The notes under the pieces were generated by a model. That model ran no database searches, had not been told where the DNA came from, and was given only the letters and a program-made list of their open reading frames with translations. From positions 6,882,001 through 6,946,000 of the forward strand of contig NZ_MWQN01000001.1 of NCBI RefSeq assembly GCF_002024165.1: a stretch of 64,000 nucleotides of DNA. The letters run 5' to 3'. Positions 7,940 through 47,697 of the stretch are shown one piece after another. Source of the stretch: Embleya scabrispora. Its GTDB lineage: Bacteria > Actinomycetota > Actinomycetes > Streptomycetales > Streptomycetaceae. Made by a program: the position numbers and the translations under genes. The first letter of the stretch is position 1. Each line of letters starts with the position of its first letter.

Positions 7940-9022
7940 ATGTCTCTCCGGTTCGAGGGCAGGATTCGCCGCCGATTCGTGGCGCCCGTCGCGGCGGTTG
8001 CCATGGCGCTCGTGCTGGGTGCCTGTGGATCGAAGGACGACAAGGACGACAAGTCCGCCGGGACCGACCGTCCCGCCGGCTCCGCGGGAGCGCCCGCCGC
8101 CGACGTTCCCGGGGCCTTCCCGGTCAGCATCAAAAGTGCCCTGGGCACCGCCACGATTCCCAAGAGGCCCGAGCGGGTCGTGACGCTGGGGCAGGGCTCG
8201 GCGGAGACCTCGATCGCGTTGGGACGGGTCCCCGTCGGCATCGAGAGCTACGCCTGGGGCAGCGACGGATCCGGCTATCTGCCGTGGATCCACGAGGCGG
8301 TCACCAAGTCCGGCGGCAAGCTGCCGAAGCAGTTCAAGGGCGGCGAGGAACTCGACATCGAGGCCGTCGCCGCGCTGGAACCGGACGTCATCCTCGCGCC
8401 CTGGTCCGGCATCACGCAGAAGCAGTACGACCTGCTGAAGGACATCGCGCCCACGGTCGCGTACCCGGACAAGGCCTGGAGCACCGACTGGGACCAGCAG
8501 ATCGACATCGTCGGCAAGGCGCTCGGCCAACCGGACCGGGCCAAGGAGGCGACCGCCAAGATCAAGCAGCAGTTGGCGGACGCGGCGGCGACCCGGCCGA
8601 ACTACAAGAACGTCACCTTCTCCTACATCTACACCACCGGCCCCGGCACGCTCGGTGTCTTCAAGCCCGAGGAGCAGCGGGTCTCCGTGGTCTCCTCGCT
8701 CGGGCTCAAGGTCGACCCGATCGTGAACACGTTCCCGGAGACCGACGGCACCGACTCGGCGGTCATCGGCCTGGAGAACGCCGACAAACTCGCCGCCAGC
8801 GATGTCGTCTTCACCTTCTACACGGACGACAAGACGCGCCGTGAGATCGAGGCCCAGCCGCTCTACGCGTCGATACCGGCGGTCAAGCGCGGCGCCGTCG
8901 TGGCGAGCAACGACAACCCGTTCGTCACCGCGTCGTCGATGATCAACCCGCTGACCGTGCCGTGGAGCATCCAGCGCTACCTGCCACAGATCGACGCCGC
9001 GGTCGCCAAGGCCGGCAAGTAG
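7940..9022 (+). CDS. Iron-siderophore ABC transporter substrate-binding lipoprotein
   Basis: A 360-residue periplasmic-binding-type protein that captures ferric siderophore outside the cell. A lipoprotein signal ends in LGAC, so the mature protein is tethered by its N-terminal Cys; a charged Asp/Lys linker follows. The mature part has the FepB/FhuD-like features TIPKRPERVVTLG and ALEPDVILAPW, plus a C-terminal lobe. The ATG at 7940 was chosen because AAAGAGG lies 7 nt upstream; an in-frame TTG at 7919 is less likely. First gene of a four-gene operon behind the iron box. Confidence 0.92.
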   Translation: MSLRFEGRIRRRFVAPVAAVAMALVLGACGSKDDKDDKSAGTDRPAGSAGAPAADVPGAFPVSIKSALGTATIPKRPERVVTLGQGSAETSIALGRVPVGIESYAWGSDGSGYLPWIHEAVTKSGGKLPKQFKGGEELDIEAVAALEPDVILAPWSGITQKQYDLLKDIAPTVAYPDKAWSTDWDQQIDIVGKALGQPDRAKEATAKIKQQLADAAATRPNYKNVTFSYIYTTGPGTLGVFKPEEQRVSVVSSLGLKVDPIVNTFPETDGTDSAVIGLENADKLAASDVVFTFYTDDKTRREIEAQPLYASIPAVKRGAVVASNDNPFVTASSMINPLTVPWSIQRYLPQIDAAVAKAGK

Positions 9023-36933: not shown

Positions 36934-39900
36934 TCATGCACCGACAGGCTCCTTCGGGCGGGTGTGCGATGTGGTGAACAGTGCGGGGTTGTCCTGGAGA
37001 AGGTTTTCGAGCACCGCGCGGATGCCCGCCTCGTCGTCGCCGCAGCCGGCGGCGCGGTGCTCGAAGACGGCGAGCAGTGCGCCCAGTTCGGCGTCCCCGG
37101 CCGCCGCGGCGGTGCGCAGCCGGGACAGGAAGAGCGAACAGGGCACCCGCTGTGCACGCGCGCCGGCCAGGTCGTCGAAGTGCACGCTGCCGGGGCTGAA
37201 GAGGTGCGCGGCACGCCCGCGCGGCGCCGGGTCCCGGATCGCGTCGACGATGGCCCGCGCGATCGTGTCGAGCGGGCTGTAGTCCGACCGGATCGTCGCC
37301 CGGGGCACCGTGCCCAGCCGCTCGAAGGCGGTGAGCAGCAGATGGGTCAGCGCGGTCGGGTTGGGTACGGCGGCGGCATCGGCGGCCGGCATGACCTCGC
37401 CCAGGCGCAGCACCGTCACCGGCAGGTCGTCGGCGGCCAGGACGAGCCGCTCGGCCACCCACTTCGACAGGCTGTATCCGCTCAACGGCGGGGTCACGGC
37501 GGTGATGTCCACGTCTGCGGGCACCGGTTGGCCGACGGCCACCGCGTGGTCGTACAGGACGCCGAGCGTGGAGATGTAGTGCAGGGGGATGCCGCCGGCC
37601 GCACGGGCGAGGCGAATGATCTCCGCCGTGCCCAGCACGTTGGGCTCACGGTGCATGCGGTAGTCGTACAGGAGGTTGACCAGGGCGCCGCCGTGCACGA
37701 TCAGGTCGCACTCCTCGGCGAGCCGGTGCTGGCGGGTGTCCGTCAGTCCGAGGCCGGGGAGGGCCAGGTCTGCGGCGACCGCGGTGATTCGTCCGGCATA
37801 CCCGGCGTGGTTCAGGCCCTGCGCGGACAGGGCGTCCAGGAGACGTTGCCGCGCGTGGGAGTCGTTGTCCCCGCGGGTCAGGCAGAGCACCGACAGGTCG
37901 GTCTGTTCGAGGAGTTCGTGCAGCAGGCGCGTACCGACGAACCCCGTCGCGCCGGTGAGCAACACCGTGCGCGCGGCCCGGCTTCGCCGCGCGGGACCAA
38001 GCGCCGGGATCGCCACGAGGCCGGCGAGGTCGGCGGCGACCAGGTCGGCCGAGGACGGTATGCGATCGTGCCCGCGCCGTGCGATCAGCCGGCCCAGGCC
38101 ACTCGCCGTCGGATGCTCGACGACGTCCCGGACGCCGATGTCCGTGCCGAACCGGTCGCTCAACTCGACCACGACCGCAACCGCCTGCAACGAGTTTCCG
38201 CCCGCGGCGAAGAAGTCGTCGTCGGCCGCGAAGTCCGGGCGCCGCAGGGCGCTTCGGAAGATGGCCAGTACCGGATCGGCGCCTCCGGCGGAGGGCGGCG
38301 AGTCGGGCCGCTCCACCCGGGCGGCCAACCGGCGCCGATCGATCTTTCCCGCCTCGGTCAGCGGCATGTCGGGCACGATCACCACGCGTTGCGGGATGCC
38401 GGCGCGAGGGAGCCGGGCCCGCAGGTGGGCAAGCACCTGCTCCTCGCCGGCCGTTCCGGTGATGACGAGCAACAGTTCACGCGCGCGGCTCTCGGTGGAT
38501 CCGACGACCAGTGCGACGGCCTGCCGAACTCCCTTGCAGGCCAGGCCCACGTTCTCGATCTCGCCCGGCTCGAGGCGTACCCCACCGACCTTGATCTGAT
38601 GATCGACGCGCCCGCCGAAGTGGAAGCGACCCTCGGCGTCGAGGTGCCCGAGGTCGCCGGTGCGATACATCCGGCCGAACGGCGGGGAATCGAAGAAGCG
38701 TCGCGCGGTGCGATGCGGGTCGCCGTGGTACCCGGCGCCCACACAGGCGCCGCCGATGACGATCTCCCCGGTCGCTCCGGGCGGCAGGGGCCGCCCGTCG
38801 ACGTCGACGACGACGGCGACGCAGTTGTCGATCGGCCGCCCCAGCGGGATGTCGTCGCCGTCCTCGGCGGTCACCTCGTGAAAGATCATCCCGATGGACG
38901 CCTCCGAGGGCCCGTACGCGTTGCTGACGCGCAATCCAGGCAGCAACTCCCGCAGAGCCCGCACGTCCTGCGGATTGATCTGCTCGCCACCGACCACCAG
39001 GTGCCGCAGCGAGCGCAATCGCTCGACCGTCGCCGGCCGCCGTTCCAACAGGGTCAACAACGCGCCCAGTACCGCCGGTACGAAGTCGGTGACCGTCACG
39101 GCGTGGGTGTCGATGAGGTCGATGGTGTGCTGCAGGTCGAGATGCTCACCGGCGGTGGGAACCACCGTGGCCCCGCCGGTGGTCAGCGGCCAGAACAGCT
39201 GCCAGAAAGCCGAATCGAAGGTGTGCCGGGTGTTCTGCAGCACCACCTCGCGGTCCGGCGGGGGACCGAACCAGCGATCCATGAAGGCGAGTCGGTTCGC
39301 CAGGCCCCCGTGCAGGTTGACCGCGCACTGGGGCGTTCCGGTCGTGCCGGAGGTGTAGACGCCGTAGACGACGTCGTGCGGCGCCGGTTCCGGTGTTGCG
39401 TCTCCGAAAATGAACTGCGTTGCTGTGTCCCGAGTTCGACGACGAACGCCCGGTCGCGGTGGGAGGCGGGGACGACGGCCGGATCGGTGCACAACACCAC
39501 GGGCGCGTCGAGCAGATCGAGGATGTGCGCGATGCGCACGGCGGGCCAGCGGGGGTCGATCGGTACATAGCCGATCCCGGCCATCATCGCGGCGGCCCAG
39601 GACACCGGCAGGGCGAGGCCGTCCGCGACGAGGATGGGTACCAATGTGCCGGTTCTCGGTGCGGCGGCGCGGATCCGGGCGGCCAGCGTGCCGGCGTGCG
39701 CGAGGAACTGCCGGTAGGTCAGCGTCGCGTCGGCGGCGTACACCGCCACGGCATCCGGGAGGGACCGGCCGACGGCCAGAATCCGTTCCGGGACACTGCG
39801 GTAGGGGCCGTGGTCCACCCGTGTCCCCGCGAGCGGGCCCAGCACCGCCGACTCGGTGTCCGGGGACAGCGCGGCGACCCCACCGAGGTCGAGGTCCGGG

Positions 39901-40235
39901 TCGGGATCGGCCAGCACCGCGCCCAGCAGTTCGGCGTGCATCTCGGAGACCGCCGCAGCGGCCCGCTCCCAGACATCGCCGGGAGGACATCGCAGTTCCA
40001 CCGACAGCCAGCCGGCGGGGTCGATCCGTACCCGCACGGTCGGCCCGGCCGTGTCGTCGGCCGCGTCGTGCGTGTGAACGGCGACCGTCTTCGGGTCGAT
40101 CGCGGTCGCGTCGAGCGCCAGTTCCCGTCCCAGCCGTCGGGCGACTTCCGCCAACGTCCGGACGGCGGCGTCCGTTAAAGAGATGTCGGGCCTGAGAAGG
40201 ACGGGATGCCGGTGGCCCCGCCAACCGAGGTTCAT
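36934..40235 (-). CDS. NRPS-like A-T-thioester reductase, reading frame broken once
   Basis: Homology runs from MNLGWRGHRHP (ATG at 40235) through a ~170-residue head and the first half of an adenylation domain, then continues in another frame from about 39395-39440 with VVYGVYTSGTTG onward; a single-base difference separates the halves. The second half holds the A core (pocket D-S-W-D-V-G-A-I-G-K), a carrier domain (AAGGNS) and a C-terminal reductase of the SDR type (LLTGATGFVGTRL, YSLSKWVAE). Such proteins release a bound amino acid as an aldehyde using NADPH. It is first in the minus-strand cluster. Either the gene is inactivated or the assembly has a one-base error. Confidence 0.75.
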
Positions 40236-40237
40236 GG

Positions 40238-40260
40238 CCCCAACGTAGGTCGCGTTGGGG
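40238..40260. promoter_or_regulatory. Inverted repeat at the NRPS-cluster start
   Basis: CCCCAACG (40238-40245) and its perfect complement (40253-40260) with a 7-bp gap end 3 bp before the A-T-reductase start codon. In the mRNA it would form a hairpin just upstream of the ATG; in DNA it could be an operator. Farther into the same divergent region CGATGATC is repeated at 40296 and 40308 (12-bp period), and GTTGG-CAT-CCAAC forms a small repeat at 40280-40292. Confidence 0.5.
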
Positions 40261-40359
40261 ATCATTGGTGTGACCGGAAGTTGGCATCCAACCGACGATG
40301 ATCTTAACGATGATCGCGATTCCCCTACTACGCCGGCGAGTTGCGCATACTGGCTGGTC

Positions 40360-41238
40360 ATGGACATCGGTGTGGCGGCAACCACGGCACGAGCGAGCGC
40401 ACACAGCGCCGGCACCAGATCCGGCGTGCGCATCCGGATGTTGGATTCGACAGCGAGCGGTCACGCCTGCGCCCGCTTTCTCTGCGAGGTCTGGCAGACC
40501 GAGCCGGACCGCCCGCCGCTCGCCGGTGACGTCGTCAAGGCGATGGCCGACGCGGGCAGTTACGTGGCGGGAGCGTTCGACGAGGCGGACGGCGACGCCC
40601 GGCTGCTCGGGGCATGCGTCGGCCTCTGGGGTCCACCGGGCCGGCCCGGAATGCACAGCCACATCGCCGGCGTCCACGTCGGCGCGCGCGGACGCGACGT
40701 CGGCTACGCGCTCAAACTGGACCAGCGGGCGCACGCCCTGGAACACGGCGTCGACCGCATCACCTGGACCTTCGACCCACTCGTCGCCCGCAACGCCCAC
40801 TTCAACCTCCACAAACTCGGCGGCACGGCGGACACGTACCTGCCCGACTACTACGGCCCCCTCTCGGACGGACTCAACGCCGCCGACGAGTCGGATCGAC
40901 TGATGCTGCGCTGGGATCTGCGCGACGAAAGAGTCGTGGCAGCCTGCGACGAGGACGACGAACCGACGCCCACTCCCGCTTCGGCCGGGCCGACCCGCCG
41001 AACCCTTCTCGACATCGACGGCGACCGGCCGGTGACCCGGCAGGCGGGGGAGGGGACGGTCCTGGTCGCCATACCGCCCGACATCGACCTTCTCCGGGCC
41101 CGGCAACCGTCCGCGGCCCGTGACTGGCGCCTGGCCCTGCGGGACACCCTGGGCAACCTGTTGGCCGACGGCGCCCGGCTGGTCGACTTCGACCGCGCGG
41201 CATGCGCTTACGTACTCACCCGAGGCGAGGGACGATGA
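40360..41238 (+). CDS. GNAT-superfamily acyltransferase-like protein (COG3375 type)
   Basis: A 292-residue protein. The N-terminal ~190 residues resemble the predicted GNAT acetyltransferases of COG3375, with the stretch GMHSHIAGVHVGARGRDVGYALKLDQRAHAL as the acyl-CoA-binding region and ITWTFDPLVARNAHFNLHKLG downstream. The C-terminus adds a region ending in VLTRGEGR. Members of this group are commonly coupled to N-succinylamino acid racemases, as here: the next gene starts in an ATGA overlap. It may add the acyl (succinyl) group. CATACT at 40346-40351 places transcription close to the ATG, so the mRNA may be leaderless. Divergent from the NRPS cluster. Confidence 0.72.
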   Translation: MDIGVAATTARASAHSAGTRSGVRIRMLDSTASGHACARFLCEVWQTEPDRPPLAGDVVKAMADAGSYVAGAFDEADGDARLLGACVGLWGPPGRPGMHSHIAGVHVGARGRDVGYALKLDQRAHALEHGVDRITWTFDPLVARNAHFNLHKLGGTADTYLPDYYGPLSDGLNAADESDRLMLRWDLRDERVVAACDEDDEPTPTPASAGPTRRTLLDIDGDRPVTRQAGEGTVLVAIPPDIDLLRARQPSAARDWRLALRDTLGNLLADGARLVDFDRAACAYVLTRGEGR

Positions 41239-42388: not shown

Positions 42389-44371
42389 TCAGACCGGCGG
42401 CATCAGATCGCTCTCGCTGACGGTGTATGCCAGCAGGGGGTAGGTGAAGTCCGTCTCCTCGTTCTCACGGCGCCGCAGTCGGTAAAATCGACGCCTCTGC
42501 TCATCATCGGCCGACACGAGGCGTGTTCCGTGCGAAAGGTATGCGTATCCGTCGCGAAACCGAACGAAGGTCTTGGACGTTCGAAACGTCACACCCAACC
42601 ATTGATTGTCCGCCTTCCGGTCGGGTGTGTCCAAAACGATCTTGTGCCTGAACCGCCGATTCGAGTCGACAGAGAACGCGACGACACTGTCGTGGGCGAG
42701 AGGAATCTCGAACTTCTCGCCATCGGACCCCTTCGACTCGAAGACCAGCTTCCTCGGCAGGCTCGCGTCGGGGTGTCGATAGCAGGAAAAGACGGCGATA
42801 AACGACTCGTCGGCCAGATCGAGGGCCTGGTCGGAATGGCTGCCCATGGTTGTGTAGGCGTTCGTATAGATCTCGATGAGAGCGTTGTTGAAATCGACGG
42901 AAAGCGCCGCACGCTCTCGGATCCGTTGCGCCAGCCGTTCGTGCACCGCCCGGAAACGCTGTGCCGGGGTGCTGTATCGAGTGGTGGTACGAACGAGGGC
43001 CACCCCACCGGCCTCGTCGACCCTGGTGAGCACGGCGCCTCGCCGACCCTTTCCGACGTCTTCCCAACGAACCGACGCGGACAGCTCCGCAAAGAGATTC
43101 TCCTCGGTCGGCAAGGTGCAGGAGAGGATCGCGTCCGGGACTCTAGACCCGAGGGGCAATGTAGTCCCCCTGTTCATGCTGAAAACGAACTCGTTCCCAT
43201 AGTCGATGAAGGACGAGGTCCTGTTCTCCTCGGCGTACAGCCTGCGCAACTCGTCCATGCCGGCCGGTGTGGGCGGCCCCAACCTCACCAGATCCTCGGC
43301 CACTTTGAGGAACGTGTGGCCGTCCTTGTGAACAGCTTCGGCGTTCGAACAGCGCACCACGTATCCCAGGCGGGTGGGGAGCAGCTCGGCGTCCAACGTC
43401 GACGGCCGGATCTCGTGCGTGTACAGGCGGTTGGTGGACAGCGGCATGAAGAACACGGAGCCGGGATAGAGCGTCAGGGTGAACTGCGAGGGGAGCGCGA
43501 CCCCATCGCGTTCGTCGATCGGCTCCTTGAGGTGAAAGCGCAGTCTGGTCAGCCCGCCGGCACGCTTCACGCCGTAGTCGAACGGGTCTTCGGCCAGGGG
43601 CTGCAGCTTGTCGAGACCGTCATAGAACGTGCAGAAGGCCATGATGCCATTGACCGGCATGTCCTTGGTCTTGTCGGCATGCGCCGAGATCTTGGCCTTG
43701 GACTGCTTGCGCTCGGCCGTGGCAAGGGTGTTGTGGTAAATCTGGGCAAGAACGTGATTCAGCGGTGCGTGATTCCGGAAAACGGTGGCGGCCTCGCGAT
43801 TCAGCGCCTCGACGATGTGCGTGTCGGTCGAGCGAAAGCCCTCGGTCGGCCCCGAGAGATTCGTGGAGCAGCGGAGCAAACGGAAATGCAGTTCGTCACC
43901 GCTTCGGGTGACCGGCGTCAGATAGATCCCACTGCGATGGGCTGTTCCGGGCTTGGTGGACTCCGTCAGGGACTGGAACGCGTGCTCGGCACTGATCCGC
44001 CCGAAGTGGTCGGCGTCGAGTGCGAAAAAGCGGCGGTAGTACACGCCGACGCCGTGCACCCGGATGGGAACGCGGCCGAGGTCGACGAGCGTCCATGGTT
44101 CGTCGACGTCCTCGTGGTAGCCGTGCGACAGCTCCCGGATGACGAATACCCGCGCAGCCGCCCGCAGTTGACGGCCGCTGATCGCGGATATATCGCCACA
44201 CAGATAGACAGTCCTCTGCGCGAGATCGGGCGGAGCGGAGGCCAGATCCTCCGGCGTGATCGTGGACCCGAAGAATTCCCTGAGCAAGTCATTGTCACGC
44301 AACCCCGAGGGCGCAACCAGGATGTTGCTCGCATCCTCGATACGGGCTTCTGCCAACTCTGGTGTGTGCAT
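42389..44371 (-). CDS. Tandem AlkB-like 2-oxoglutarate/Fe(II) dioxygenase-like protein
   Basis: A 660-residue protein without signal or membrane segments. Two segments carry the double-stranded beta-helix residues of AlkB enzymes. In the first: His231-x-Asp233, His319, Arg334-x5-Arg340. In the second: His512-x-Asp514 (GSHSDQ), His576, and Arg597 in GVTFR, with Trp591 where the first Arg would be. The region before the second (RTTTRYSTPAQRFRAVHERL) also resembles AlkB-like proteins. AlkB relatives demethylate DNA or RNA, or hydroxylate other substrates; the role here is unknown. Codon choice is visibly less GC-biased than in neighbours, suggesting transfer. It ends 14 bp from the racemase end, convergent. 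Confidence 0.65.
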   Translation of the reverse strand: MHTPELAEARIEDASNILVAPSGLRDNDLLREFFGSTITPEDLASAPPDLAQRTVYLCGDISAISGRQLRAAARVFVIRELSHGYHEDVDEPWTLVDLGRVPIRVHGVGVYYRRFFALDADHFGRISAEHAFQSLTESTKPGTAHRSGIYLTPVTRSGDELHFRLLRCSTNLSGPTEGFRSTDTHIVEALNREAATVFRNHAPLNHVLAQIYHNTLATAERKQSKAKISAHADKTKDMPVNGIMAFCTFYDGLDKLQPLAEDPFDYGVKRAGGLTRLRFHLKEPIDERDGVALPSQFTLTLYPGSVFFMPLSTNRLYTHEIRPSTLDAELLPTRLGYVVRCSNAEAVHKDGHTFLKVAEDLVRLGPPTPAGMDELRRLYAEENRTSSFIDYGNEFVFSMNRGTTLPLGSRVPDAILSCTLPTEENLFAELSASVRWEDVGKGRRGAVLTRVDEAGGVALVRTTTRYSTPAQRFRAVHERLAQRIRERAALSVDFNNALIEIYTNAYTTMGSHSDQALDLADESFIAVFSCYRHPDASLPRKLVFESKGSDGEKFEIPLAHDSVVAFSVDSNRRFRHKIVLDTPDRKADNQWLGVTFRTSKTFVRFRDGYAYLSHGTRLVSADDEQRRRFYRLRRRENEETDFTYPLLAYTVSESDLMPPV

Positions 44372-44610
44372 CGTGCGTTACCTGCCGTTCGCTCAAAACC
44401 TTGATGCTCTCACGGGCCTCCACAGTGGGCAACGGGCCACAGCGGTCCCGGGCAGAGAGCGCCCGGCGAGGTGCGGTGGGCACGTCGTGTGCGCGCTCGA
44501 CCCGGAACACGACCGTCGTGGCCGCCGACCACGCCCGCGAACCGCGCCTCGATCACGGGCCGTTCGCCCGCATCACGACTTTCGGGCAACGACGAGCCGC
44601 TCGGTGTCCG

Positions 44611-47013
44611 TCAGGCTCTCGCCCCGAACGCCGGTGAATCCGGCGCCGGCGAACCGGGCCGAGGCCCGAGCCACGCGGGGAACCGTGCCGATCTCCGTGC
44701 GGAGTCGTCCGTCGGGGGCACCGCCCACCGGTACACCGCTCCCTCGCGGCCGGGACTGGTGACCAACAGCGACCCGTCCGGCGAGAACGCCACCGCGACG
44801 ACTCGGCCGGTGTGCCCGATGGGGGCACCGACCGGGCGACCGGTGGCCGGATCCCACAACCGCACGGTCTCGTCGGCGCCGCCGGTGACCAACAGCGACC
44901 CGCCCGGCGAGAACACCACCACCCGGATCGTATCGGTGTGGCCGTCGAGGGGGCCGCCGACCGGGCGACCGGTGACCGGGTCCCACAACCGCACGGTCTT
45001 GTCGACGCCGCCGGTGGCCAGCAGCGATCCGTCCGGGGAGAACGCCGCCGCGAACACTTCGCCGGTGTGGCCGATGAGGGGATCGCCGACCGGACGTCGC
45101 GCGGCCGGGCGCCACAAGCGCACGATCTCGTCGGTGCCGCAGGCGGCCAACACCGACCCGTCCGGGGAGAACGCCACCGCAAGGACCCGCCCTCGGTGGT
45201 CGAGGGGATCACCGACCGGGCGACCGGTGGCCGGGTCCCACAATCGCAGCGTCTCGTGGCCGCCGTCGTCGCATCCGGTCGCGAGCAGAGCCCCATCCGG
45301 GGAGAAGGCCACCGCGAAGACTCCGCCGGGGTGGCGGAGGCGTCCGCTCCGACGACCGGTGGCCGGTTCCCACAACCGCACGGTCTTGTCGGCGCCGCAG
45401 GTGGCCAGCAGCGATCCGTCCGGGGAGAACGCCGCCGCGAACACTTCGCCGGTGTGGCCGATGAGGGGATCGCCGACCGGACGTCGCGTGGCCGGTTCCC
45501 ACAACCGCACGGTCTCGTCGGCGCCGCCCGTGACCAGCACCGACCCGTCCGGGGAGAACGCCAGCGCCGGAACCCGGCCACGATGGCCGGTCAGCGGCAG
45601 CAACGGCACCACCCCGGCGGCGACGACATCGGCGCAGAACGCCCGCTCGGCGAGCGTCGCGGACAGCGTGCGCGGGGCGAGGCGGGCGTACAACCGCACC
45701 GACCTGTCATCGCCGCCGGACGCCAGCAGCGCGCCGTCCGGCGAGAACGCCACCGCGAAGACCGCACCGGCATGGCCGGCCAGGGGATTGCCGACCAAGC
45801 GGCCGGTGGCAAGGTCCCACAATCGCACGGCGCCGTCCTCGCCGCCGGAGGCGAGCAGCGCACCGTCCGGGGAGAACGCCACCGCGAGGACCGTGCCGGC
45901 ATGGCCGGTCAGGCCGTCGCCCACGGGGCGTCGGGCGGCCGGGTCCCACAGCCGTACCACCCCGTCGTAGCCGCCGGAGGCCAGCAGCGCACCGTCAGGA
46001 GAGAACGCCAGCGCCCGGACCACGCCCGTGTGGCCGGTGAGGGGTTCTCCGATCTGTTCCAGGGTGACCGGGTCCCACAGTTGCACCCGGTTTTTGTAGC
46101 CGCAGGTGGCCAGCAGCGACCCGTCCGGGGAGAACACGACCGCGAAGACCCGTCCGGAGCGTCCGGTGAACAGCCTGTCGACGTGGCGTCGGGTGTCCGG
46201 GTCCCACCGGAGCACCGACCCGTCGGTGCCACCGGAGGCCAGCAGCGACCCGTCGGGAGAGAACGCCACGGCGAGGATCGTTCCGGCATGGCCCCCGGCG
46301 AGGGGGCCGCCGACCGGGCGTCGGGCGGCCGGGTCCCACAGCCGCACCGACCCCTCGGTGCCACCGGAGGCCAGCAGCGACCCGTTCGAGGAGAACGCCA
46401 AAGCGACGATCCGCCCGGGGTGGGCGGTCAGGGGATCGCCGACCGGGCGGCCGGTGTCCGGGTTCGAGAACCGCACTTCGCCGTCCTCGCCGCCGGTGGC
46501 CAGCAGCGACCCGTCCGGGGAGAATACGACCGCCCGGACCGCGCCGAGGTGGCCGGTGAGGGGGGCGCCGGCCGGGGCGTAGCGGGCCGGGAGAGGGGGC
46601 AGCCGAGGCAGCGGTACGGCCGCGTTCGCGCCCCCGACCTCCCCGTTGTCCTCGTCGCCTGCACGGCCGCGCACCGGACCGGGGGTCGGTCGGTCGGCCA
46701 TCGAGAGGGCATCGCGGTCCGCCAGCCACAACTCGTGGAAGCGCAGCACCTCCCCCTCCACGTCCGGACGGCGTACCGAGGCGGCCGCCAAGTGCCGCAC
46801 GACGGCCTCCAAGCGCGGCCAGTCCGGGACCGACCGCCCGTTCAGCAACTGGCCCAGCGTCTCGCGGCTGACCGGCGCCGGAAGGCTGTCGTCCCCGGTG
46901 ATCGCCTTGGCGGCCACGTGCGTGCTGGGCCGCCCCGCATCGGTATACAGCCGGTGCAGCGCCACGATCAGGTCCCGCCGCGCCCCCGGGGGCACCCGCT
47001 CCTCGCCCGGCAT
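44611..47013 (-). CDS. WD40 protein with 14 repeats and helical N-terminus
   Basis: An 800-residue protein. The N-terminal ~110 residues are helical with VSRETLGQLLNGRSVPDWPRLEAVVRHL, which resembles the XRE-like heads of actinobacterial WD40 and NTPase signalling proteins. Fourteen WD40 repeats follow (FSPDGSLLATGG...VRLWDPATGRPVG...), enough for two seven-blade propellers; an irregular insert sits after blade 7. Repeats are so alike that 88 bp of blade DNA are identical at 45014-45101 and 45401-45488. It is probably a scaffold for protein-protein contacts. The ATG at 47013 is chosen; a GTG at 47025 is possible. Confidence 0.85.
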   Translation of the reverse strand: MPGEERVPPGARRDLIVALHRLYTDAGRPSTHVAAKAITGDDSLPAPVSRETLGQLLNGRSVPDWPRLEAVVRHLAAASVRRPDVEGEVLRFHELWLADRDALSMADRPTPGPVRGRAGDEDNGEVGGANAAVPLPRLPPLPARYAPAGAPLTGHLGAVRAVVFSPDGSLLATGGEDGEVRFSNPDTGRPVGDPLTAHPGRIVALAFSSNGSLLASGGTEGSVRLWDPAARRPVGGPLAGGHAGTILAVAFSPDGSLLASGGTDGSVLRWDPDTRRHVDRLFTGRSGRVFAVVFSPDGSLLATCGYKNRVQLWDPVTLEQIGEPLTGHTGVVRALAFSPDGALLASGGYDGVVRLWDPAARRPVGDGLTGHAGTVLAVAFSPDGALLASGGEDGAVRLWDLATGRLVGNPLAGHAGAVFAVAFSPDGALLASGGDDRSVRLYARLAPRTLSATLAERAFCADVVAAGVVPLLPLTGHRGRVPALAFSPDGSVLVTGGADETVRLWEPATRRPVGDPLIGHTGEVFAAAFSPDGSLLATCGADKTVRLWEPATGRRSGRLRHPGGVFAVAFSPDGALLATGCDDGGHETLRLWDPATGRPVGDPLDHRGRVLAVAFSPDGSVLAACGTDEIVRLWRPAARRPVGDPLIGHTGEVFAAAFSPDGSLLATGGVDKTVRLWDPVTGRPVGGPLDGHTDTIRVVVFSPGGSLLVTGGADETVRLWDPATGRPVGAPIGHTGRVVAVAFSPDGSLLVTSPGREGAVYRWAVPPTDDSARRSARFPAWLGPRPGSPAPDSPAFGARA
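45014..45101. repeat. 88-bp exact repeat inside the WD40 gene, copy 1
   Basis: Identical to 45401-45488. The offset of 387 bp equals three 129-bp blade units, so this is a recent duplication or gene conversion among blades. Confidence 0.85.
45401..45488. repeat. 88-bp exact repeat inside the WD40 gene, copy 2
   Basis: Identical to 45014-45101, in direct orientation and in the same reading frame. Confidence 0.85.
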
Positions 47014-47256
47014 CGCGATCGCCACACGCCCCCCGCCCCGCGCACACGCGCCCCATCGCAAGCAGCCGCCCAGATCTGCCAAGTCTCCTCCCCGGCAACG
47101 ACGTTCGCAGGCCAACCGCCGACAAGAACCGCCCGAACCCGGCGGCCTCCCGCCCATGATCGGCAGGACGTGACCGAAACCGGTCCGGCGCAGTGACCAG
47201 GGCCGACGGTGGAAACACGGGGCAACAAGCCCCGCCGACACCCACCGGGGGACGCC

Positions 47257-47565
47257 ATGACCAGCCCGCTCACCACCACCGCCGCGCCGGTCCTGGCGCC
47301 CCTGTTCTCCGCCGCCGTGAAGGCGCCCGCATGGATCACCTTGCCGCTGTTCGCCCTGGGCGCGGCGGCGGTGATCGTGCACCTGGTCCTGCAACTGCGC
47401 GCCGCACGCGAGCAGGAACGCGCCACCCGGCACGCCGAACAACGCCGGGCCGCCCTCGAAGACGAAGCCGTCCACGCCGCCCGCACCATCACCGACGCCA
47501 CCGAACGCACAGCCGTCCTCGTCGACCTCGCCGCCCTGCGCACCAGACCCCCCGACCCGCCGTAG
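47257..47565 (+). CDS. Small single-pass membrane protein
   Basis: A 102-residue protein: a short polar head, one hydrophobic helix (AWITLPLFALGAAAVIVHLVLQL, about residues 25-47) and a charged helical tail (RAAREQERATRHAEQRRAALEDEAV region) likely to form a coiled coil. GGGGGA precedes the ATG at 47257. It is divergent from the WD40 gene with about 240 bp between. No family is recognised; it could be a membrane partner of the WD40 protein, which is only a guess from position. Confidence 0.65.
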   Translation: MTSPLTTTAAPVLAPLFSAAVKAPAWITLPLFALGAAAVIVHLVLQLRAAREQERATRHAEQRRAALEDEAVHAARTITDATERTAVLVDLAALRTRPPDPP

Positions 47566-47697
47566 ACGACCTGTCGAATCGCGCAGCGTCGTGGTGCTCG
47601 TGCCCCGTCTGTCGACGTCACCCGAGTGGATCCCGACGCCGGCACGCTGCCGAGCCGGACGGCGGAGCGAGGCTCCTCGCATCTTCGCCTCGGCCGG

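Follow-up and report, generated by a model that had tools for sequence, protein, structure and literature searches.

Paired AlkB-like oxygenase domains encoded by two overlapping genes in actinobacteria and by a single frame in Embleya scabrispora

The window, a stretch of 64,000 nucleotides from Embleya scabrispora, contains a minus-strand open frame of 660 amino acids with an ATG start (42389 to 44371). This frame carries two AlkB-like domains, according to the open reading frame list and the PF13532 matches. In 68 of the 69 actinobacterial loci fetched, the two halves lie in two different frames, and the single frame of the window is the exception in this group, a fact that the preliminary description had missed. 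The explanation we favour, and hold to be probable, is that the two AlkB-type units are an obligate pair, split and translationally coupled in actinobacteria, fused elsewhere, and most likely acting on nucleic acid. The anatomy of the paired units is very likely correct, and the nucleic-acid function is a more tentative part, to which we give somewhat less than an even chance.

Domain content and predicted folds

In terms of sequence families, PF13532 (Pfam) matches two stretches of the window protein, scoring 53.2 bits where the cut-off is 31.2. The single split genes of a Kitasatospora relative stay below this cut-off (20.6 and 29.2 bits), as does one fused homolog (30.1 bits). PHROGs gave a weak alkylated-DNA-repair match across domain 2 (E 0.0012), and NCBIfam gave no match for the window protein. 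A PDB sequence search with the single window protein found no match, and with an 11-sequence profile the search gave a weak ALKBH2 match (E 0.0008). The window genome holds four further PF13532 matches at E ≤0.01, three of them above the cut-off and one full-length, so an ordinary AlkB is also present there. Bacterial AlkB proteins are reportedly classified in van den Born 2009. PADLOC had no match for the two proteins searched, which ruled out a defence system for these.

The protein begins with a small alpha/beta unit (residues 1-100; 44072 to 44371, minus strand), recognised from DSSP of both models and from the alignment, and this region is barely covered by fold matches. It is followed by domain 1 (residues 101-345; 43337 to 44071, minus strand), with H231, D233, H319, R334 and R340, and by domain 2 (residues 414-660; 42392 to 43132, minus strand), with H512, D514, H576, W591 and R597. 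The motif residues lie where the preliminary description had placed them. In both domains, the HxD...H metal site and the last arginine are kept without exception across the 79 aligned rows, a count that ignores the relatedness of the sequences and leaves out two loci, L026 and L042. An RxxxxxR motif after the distal histidine is typical of the AlkB family. It is present in domain 1 (R334, R340) and absent from domain 2 (W591, R597) in all 79 rows; the substitution of tryptophan for the first arginine, already noticed in the preliminary description, is likewise invariant.

The model of the window protein was built from 61 aligned sequences (pLDDT 85.7, pTM 0.71). Its top Foldseek match is ALKBH2 (E 3e-10), and VIA places ALKBH2 (3bty_A) on residues 410 to 601 (domain 2), with Z 17.5 and rmsd 2.4 over 175 residues. 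For domain 1 we used a second model, that of the Kitasatospora gene 1 product (moderate confidence, pLDDT 72.6, pTM 0.76). ALKBH3 (8jnk_A) matches it on residues 101 to 344, with Z 14.5 and rmsd 3.0 over 167 residues. In these predicted models both halves are AlkB-like, each with an AlkB-type jelly-roll fold, and the best matches are human ALKBH2 and ALKBH3. The idea of two AlkB-like domains in tandem thus held up by profile, by invariant residues and by fold. The resemblance to ALKBH2 and ALKBH3 extends over the fold of both domains, the HxD...H residues and the last arginine. The differences are the presence of two domains per protein or gene pair, the extra N-terminal region, an extension after each barrel, the tryptophan of domain 2, and an identity of only 12-23% across the aligned parts.

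The two domains also resemble each other, with an hhalign probability of 97 across about 200 columns that include the helix after the barrel. This homology suggests that they derive from an old tandem duplication.

Two jelly-roll domains in one chain are also found in the prolyl hydroxylases OGFOD1/Tpa1, which a 2015 paper presents as the only class of tandem-DSBH 2OG oxygenases identified so far, with metal only in the N-terminal domain and a metal-free C-terminal domain (PMC4396695). OGFOD1/Tpa1 is in our Foldseek list (E 8.9e-9), but its superposition has an rmsd of 26. By analogy with that class, one domain of the pair could be catalytic and the other structural, and the lack of the first AlkB arginine in domain 2 would fit such a division. 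Unlike OGFOD1/Tpa1, however, both domains here keep their metal residues, H512, D514 and H576 do not vary across the 79 rows, and the C-terminal domain is not free of a metal site. We therefore regard a single catalytic domain as unlikely. The preliminary description had further proposed that the second half may be degenerate and serve in substrate binding. The invariance of H512, D514, H576, W591 and R597 speaks against this, as does the fact that domain 2 resembles known AlkB enzymes more closely than domain 1 does. From these conserved residues, both sites are probably active.

Split and fused copies among relatives

We compared the loci of the best 80 of 173 relatives and found 68 split copies, 11 copies aligned in one frame and one that is frame-scrambled (L042). 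All split copies are actinobacterial, and L042 is the only one of the 69 actinobacterial loci that is not split in two frames. This count omits L059, whose contig carries a Bifidobacterium label that is probably due to misbinning. A single tandem protein as the normal state is not confirmed for this lineage. The one-protein form is found in Myxococcota, Melainabacteria/Sericytochromatia, Holophagae and others.

Three of the copies have peculiarities of their own. The copy of Nannocystis exedens DSM 71 (L026) has an in-frame TAG after 207 amino acids (8622 to 8624 of that locus), with homology continuing beyond it, and was left out of the invariance counts and the tree. The copy of Streptomyces sp. 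CB01881 (L042) has several frame breaks, is either decaying or misread, and was left out of all counts. Finally, L059 is a fused copy on a contig labelled as a Bifidobacterium breve MAG, with a GC content of 0.70, that groups with Myxococcota in the tree.

In the split relatives, gene 1 encodes about 409 amino acids (N-terminal region and domain 1) and gene 2 about 256 (domain 2). The split point falls at residue 402/403, with a +1 offset in every split locus. The two genes overlap by 17 nt in 65 of 68 loci and by 29 nt in the other three, where the gene 1 stop, otherwise found at one place, has moved by 12 nt. Embleya NBC_00888 has CAG at the usual stop position. Since the fused homologs read FSMNxGDYxAPxY in frame at the junction, the split form differs from the fused form by an offset of one base; both forms are nearly equal in length around this point.

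Start signals of gene 2

The junction of the split loci has the consensus TTC AGY ATG AAY NNN GGR GAY TAY NNT GCN CCN, and its other frame contains a Shine-Dalgarno-like GGRGA followed, after about six bases, by NTG. This NTG start of gene 2 is at the homologous position in 68 of 68 split loci, as TTG (51), GTG (12), ATG (4) or CTG (1). The gene 1 codon that overlaps it ends in T in all 68, against a T frequency of 8.3% at the other third positions of gene 1, and the amino acid encoded by this codon is variable (V, I, L, R, G, D, S or A). The glycine codon under the Shine-Dalgarno-like sequence is GGA in 62 of 68 loci, against 299 of 2068 glycine codons elsewhere. We read these codon biases, whose figures take no account of how closely the sequences are related, as indications that a start signal is under selection. 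The retention of both GGRGA and NTG in 68/68 loci, close to the upstream stop, would be the signature of separate initiation of gene 2, coupled to the translation of gene 1.

A conserved overlap of this kind could also reflect programmed +1 ribosomal frameshifting, by which actinobacteria would join the halves into a fused protein. The offset is +1 in every split locus, the split and fused lengths agree closely around the junction, and its nucleotides are highly conserved, all as frameshifting would have it. It would not account for a start codon and a Shine-Dalgarno-like sequence of gene 2 conserved at the nucleotide level, nor for a gene 1 stop that has shifted in three loci and is replaced by CAG in Embleya NBC_00888. 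For these reasons we consider frameshifting improbable and prefer coupled initiation.

Coupled gene pairs that appear as frame transitions are described among the GeneTack clusters (PMC3711429). The present pair resembles them in that the stop and the downstream start are kept near each other. It differs in that AlkB is not named among them, with 0 occurrences in the main text of that paper. No report of a tandem AlkB was found among the literature matches listed.

The junction in the window genome

In the window, gene 2 as known from the split relatives is intact from its TTG to the stop (42389 to 43159, minus strand). Its length of 256 amino acids is the commonest among the relatives. The TTG start codon lies at 43157 to 43159 and is preceded by the Shine-Dalgarno-like AGGGGGAC at 43164 to 43171 (both minus strand). 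The TAG that ends gene 1 in relatives is present at 43143 to 43145 (minus strand), out of frame. The window junction reads ATGAACAGGGGGACTACATTGCCCCTCGGGTCTAGAG, compared with ATGAACACAGGAGACTACGTTGCCC in Embleya NBC_00888, and the base by which the window falls short of its relatives is in or next to AGGGGGAC. With one base fewer, the frames are merged and the conserved GDYxAP falls out of frame.

The tree, made by a quick method with SH-aLRT support only and a midpoint root, has a branch with support 100 that sets the 68 split rows and the window apart from all other rows; within that group the window is sister to Embleya hyalina (support 99). Since the window lies within the split clade beside E. 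hyalina, its fusion is by this placement derived and not ancestral. It is either a private mutation or an assembly error.

If it is a mutation, the 660-residue protein could be real and functional, a one-base deletion having recently fused the halves again in Embleya. The frame is open with its catalytic residues intact, fused homologs exist elsewhere, and frame switches are few in the stretches compared, 3 of 130 genes in the window genome. On the other side, the reading frame of the window is wrong through GDYxAP, which the fused homologs keep, and the matches in E. hyalina, E. scabrispora, Embleya NBC_00888 and NBC_00896 are in two pieces and two frames. A second frame switch relative to E. 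hyalina also occurs about 3 kb from the AlkB-like frame, in an NRPS gene. We judge a functional re-fusion to be rather unlikely.

The second switch concerns an NRPS adenylation gene (36934 to 40433, minus strand) that changes frame at about 39.4 kb, where its ortholog in E. hyalina stays in one frame. The same NRPS genes neighbour the pair in E. hyalina, at a distance greater by about 3.4 kb. Among the matches listed, AMP-binding matches in the window genome cover almost all of the domain. The two frame switches, lying within some 4 kb, may be local assembly errors, which is suggestive only. General poor assembly was ruled out as the cause of the fusion, the window genome being no worse than its relative over the 190 kb compared (3 of 130 genes against 7 of 125 the other way).

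Upstream box and leader hairpin

A gene-specific upstream box was located by pattern match at 44408 to 44434 (minus strand). Its pattern, CCGTTGCCC...GTGAGA, has three matches in 61 genomes with up to 3 mismatches, each just upstream of an AlkB-pair gene. After the box, 20 of the 68 split loci have a covarying leader hairpin of 60-68 nt that begins 113-129 nt before gene 1. In the window the box is present and the hairpin is absent.

Across the hairpin, pairing holds in 94.0% of cells and 7 pairs show changes in both partners, a result reached in 0 of 500 shuffles; the structure came from RNAalifold on the same sequences, with one pair added by hand, and this derivation from the tested rows favours it. 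Slid versions are 38-55% paired, with 3-4 such pairs. Rfam gave no leader match in the three loci searched, and for these a known leader RNA was ruled out. Lastly, a pattern scan of 69 sequences found no LexA-type or RecA-NDp-type sites upstream.

Base composition and distribution

The gene has a GC content of 62.3%, compared with 71.5% for the window. Its GC3 of 0.797 is the lowest among the 41 called window genes of at least 200 amino acids (the others have a mean of 0.897 and sd of 0.033). The lower GC noted in the preliminary description is therefore real. In all 68 split loci the gene is also poorer in GC than its flanks, with a mean difference of 7 points; most fused copies have a GC close to their surroundings.

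As for distribution, 13 of 61 near genomes were matched, the window genome included. One of them was matched only weakly through its ordinary AlkB, which leaves 12 that carry the pair. Class-wide, 4 of 394 genomes were matched, again including its own. Genera are mixed in the tree. Sequence similarity stops at the gene 2 stop and reaches some way upstream. We found no conserved neighbourhood or operon partner, the largest neighbour cluster covering 9 loci (crude gene calls, up to about 8 kb), and no neighbour gene indicates a substrate. In the window, the adjoining frame (44611 to 47682, minus strand) is rich in FSPDGxLLA...VRLWDP repeats that look WD40-like by eye.

Three records labelled as plasmids carry the pair, two from Embleya and one from Nonomuraea that, at 11.9 Mb, is chromosome-sized. 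Phage records and viral contigs gave no match, and a phage or virus origin was ruled out by these searches. Horizontal origin, which the preliminary description had drawn from the low GC, is plausible given the patchy spread, the mixed genera and the lack of a conserved neighbourhood. The low GC itself is no proof of recent arrival, because it is common to all 68 split relatives.

Discussion

We propose that an old duplication gave rise to two unlike AlkB-type 2-oxoglutarate/Fe(II) oxygenase units that became an obligate pair. In actinobacteria, a one-base offset would divide them into gene 1 and gene 2, overlapping by 17 nt and coupled through the Shine-Dalgarno-like sequence and NTG in the last part of gene 1. 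The two products would form a 1:1 heterodimer with two metal sites, a stoichiometry that we infer because of the coupling and the natural fusion. In the window genome, the loss of one base, by recent private mutation or by assembly error, would have joined the frames and left the gene 2 start in place.

Fe(II) and 2OG binding and C-H hydroxylation are established for the 2OG oxygenase superfamily. Judged by fold and residues, each unit of the pair would share this chemistry. The likeness to ALKBH2/3 suggests a nucleic-acid substrate, in which the pair may oxidise an alkyl group or a modified base. HxD is followed by KTK in domain 1 and by QAL in domain 2, and both differ from the pattern of repair AlkB enzymes, which makes RNA or a special modified base no less likely a target than alkylation damage.

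The same residues would also suit a protein or small molecule as the substrate in place of nucleic acid. AlkB folds serve other substrates too, and ALKBH7, which acts on substrates other than nucleic acid, is among the fold matches. Weighing against this, the best fold matches are ALKBH2 and ALKBH3, many of them solved with DNA. Such a substrate is a serious contender, to be given about as much weight as the nucleic-acid function we propose.

A bolder reading is that the pair constitutes an undescribed bifunctional oxygenase, with two unlike metallated AlkB sites in one chain or in a coupled heterodimer, both acting on the same modified nucleic acid. It would be a self-contained unit, spread horizontally together with a structured leader RNA of its own, and overlooked since its split copies resemble frameshifted genes. 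We put this forward as conjecture, with roughly one chance in three of being right.

Split or fused, this AlkB-like oxygenase pair has been little studied. If both sites are active, the pair would have two working centres in a tandem 2OG oxygenase, against one in the tandem-DSBH class of the 2015 paper (PMC4396695). The contrast between split and fused copies itself predicts a heterodimer, and coupling versus frameshifting could be tested cleanly on the conserved overlap. It also calls for caution, as a tandem architecture seen in one genome can hang on a single base.
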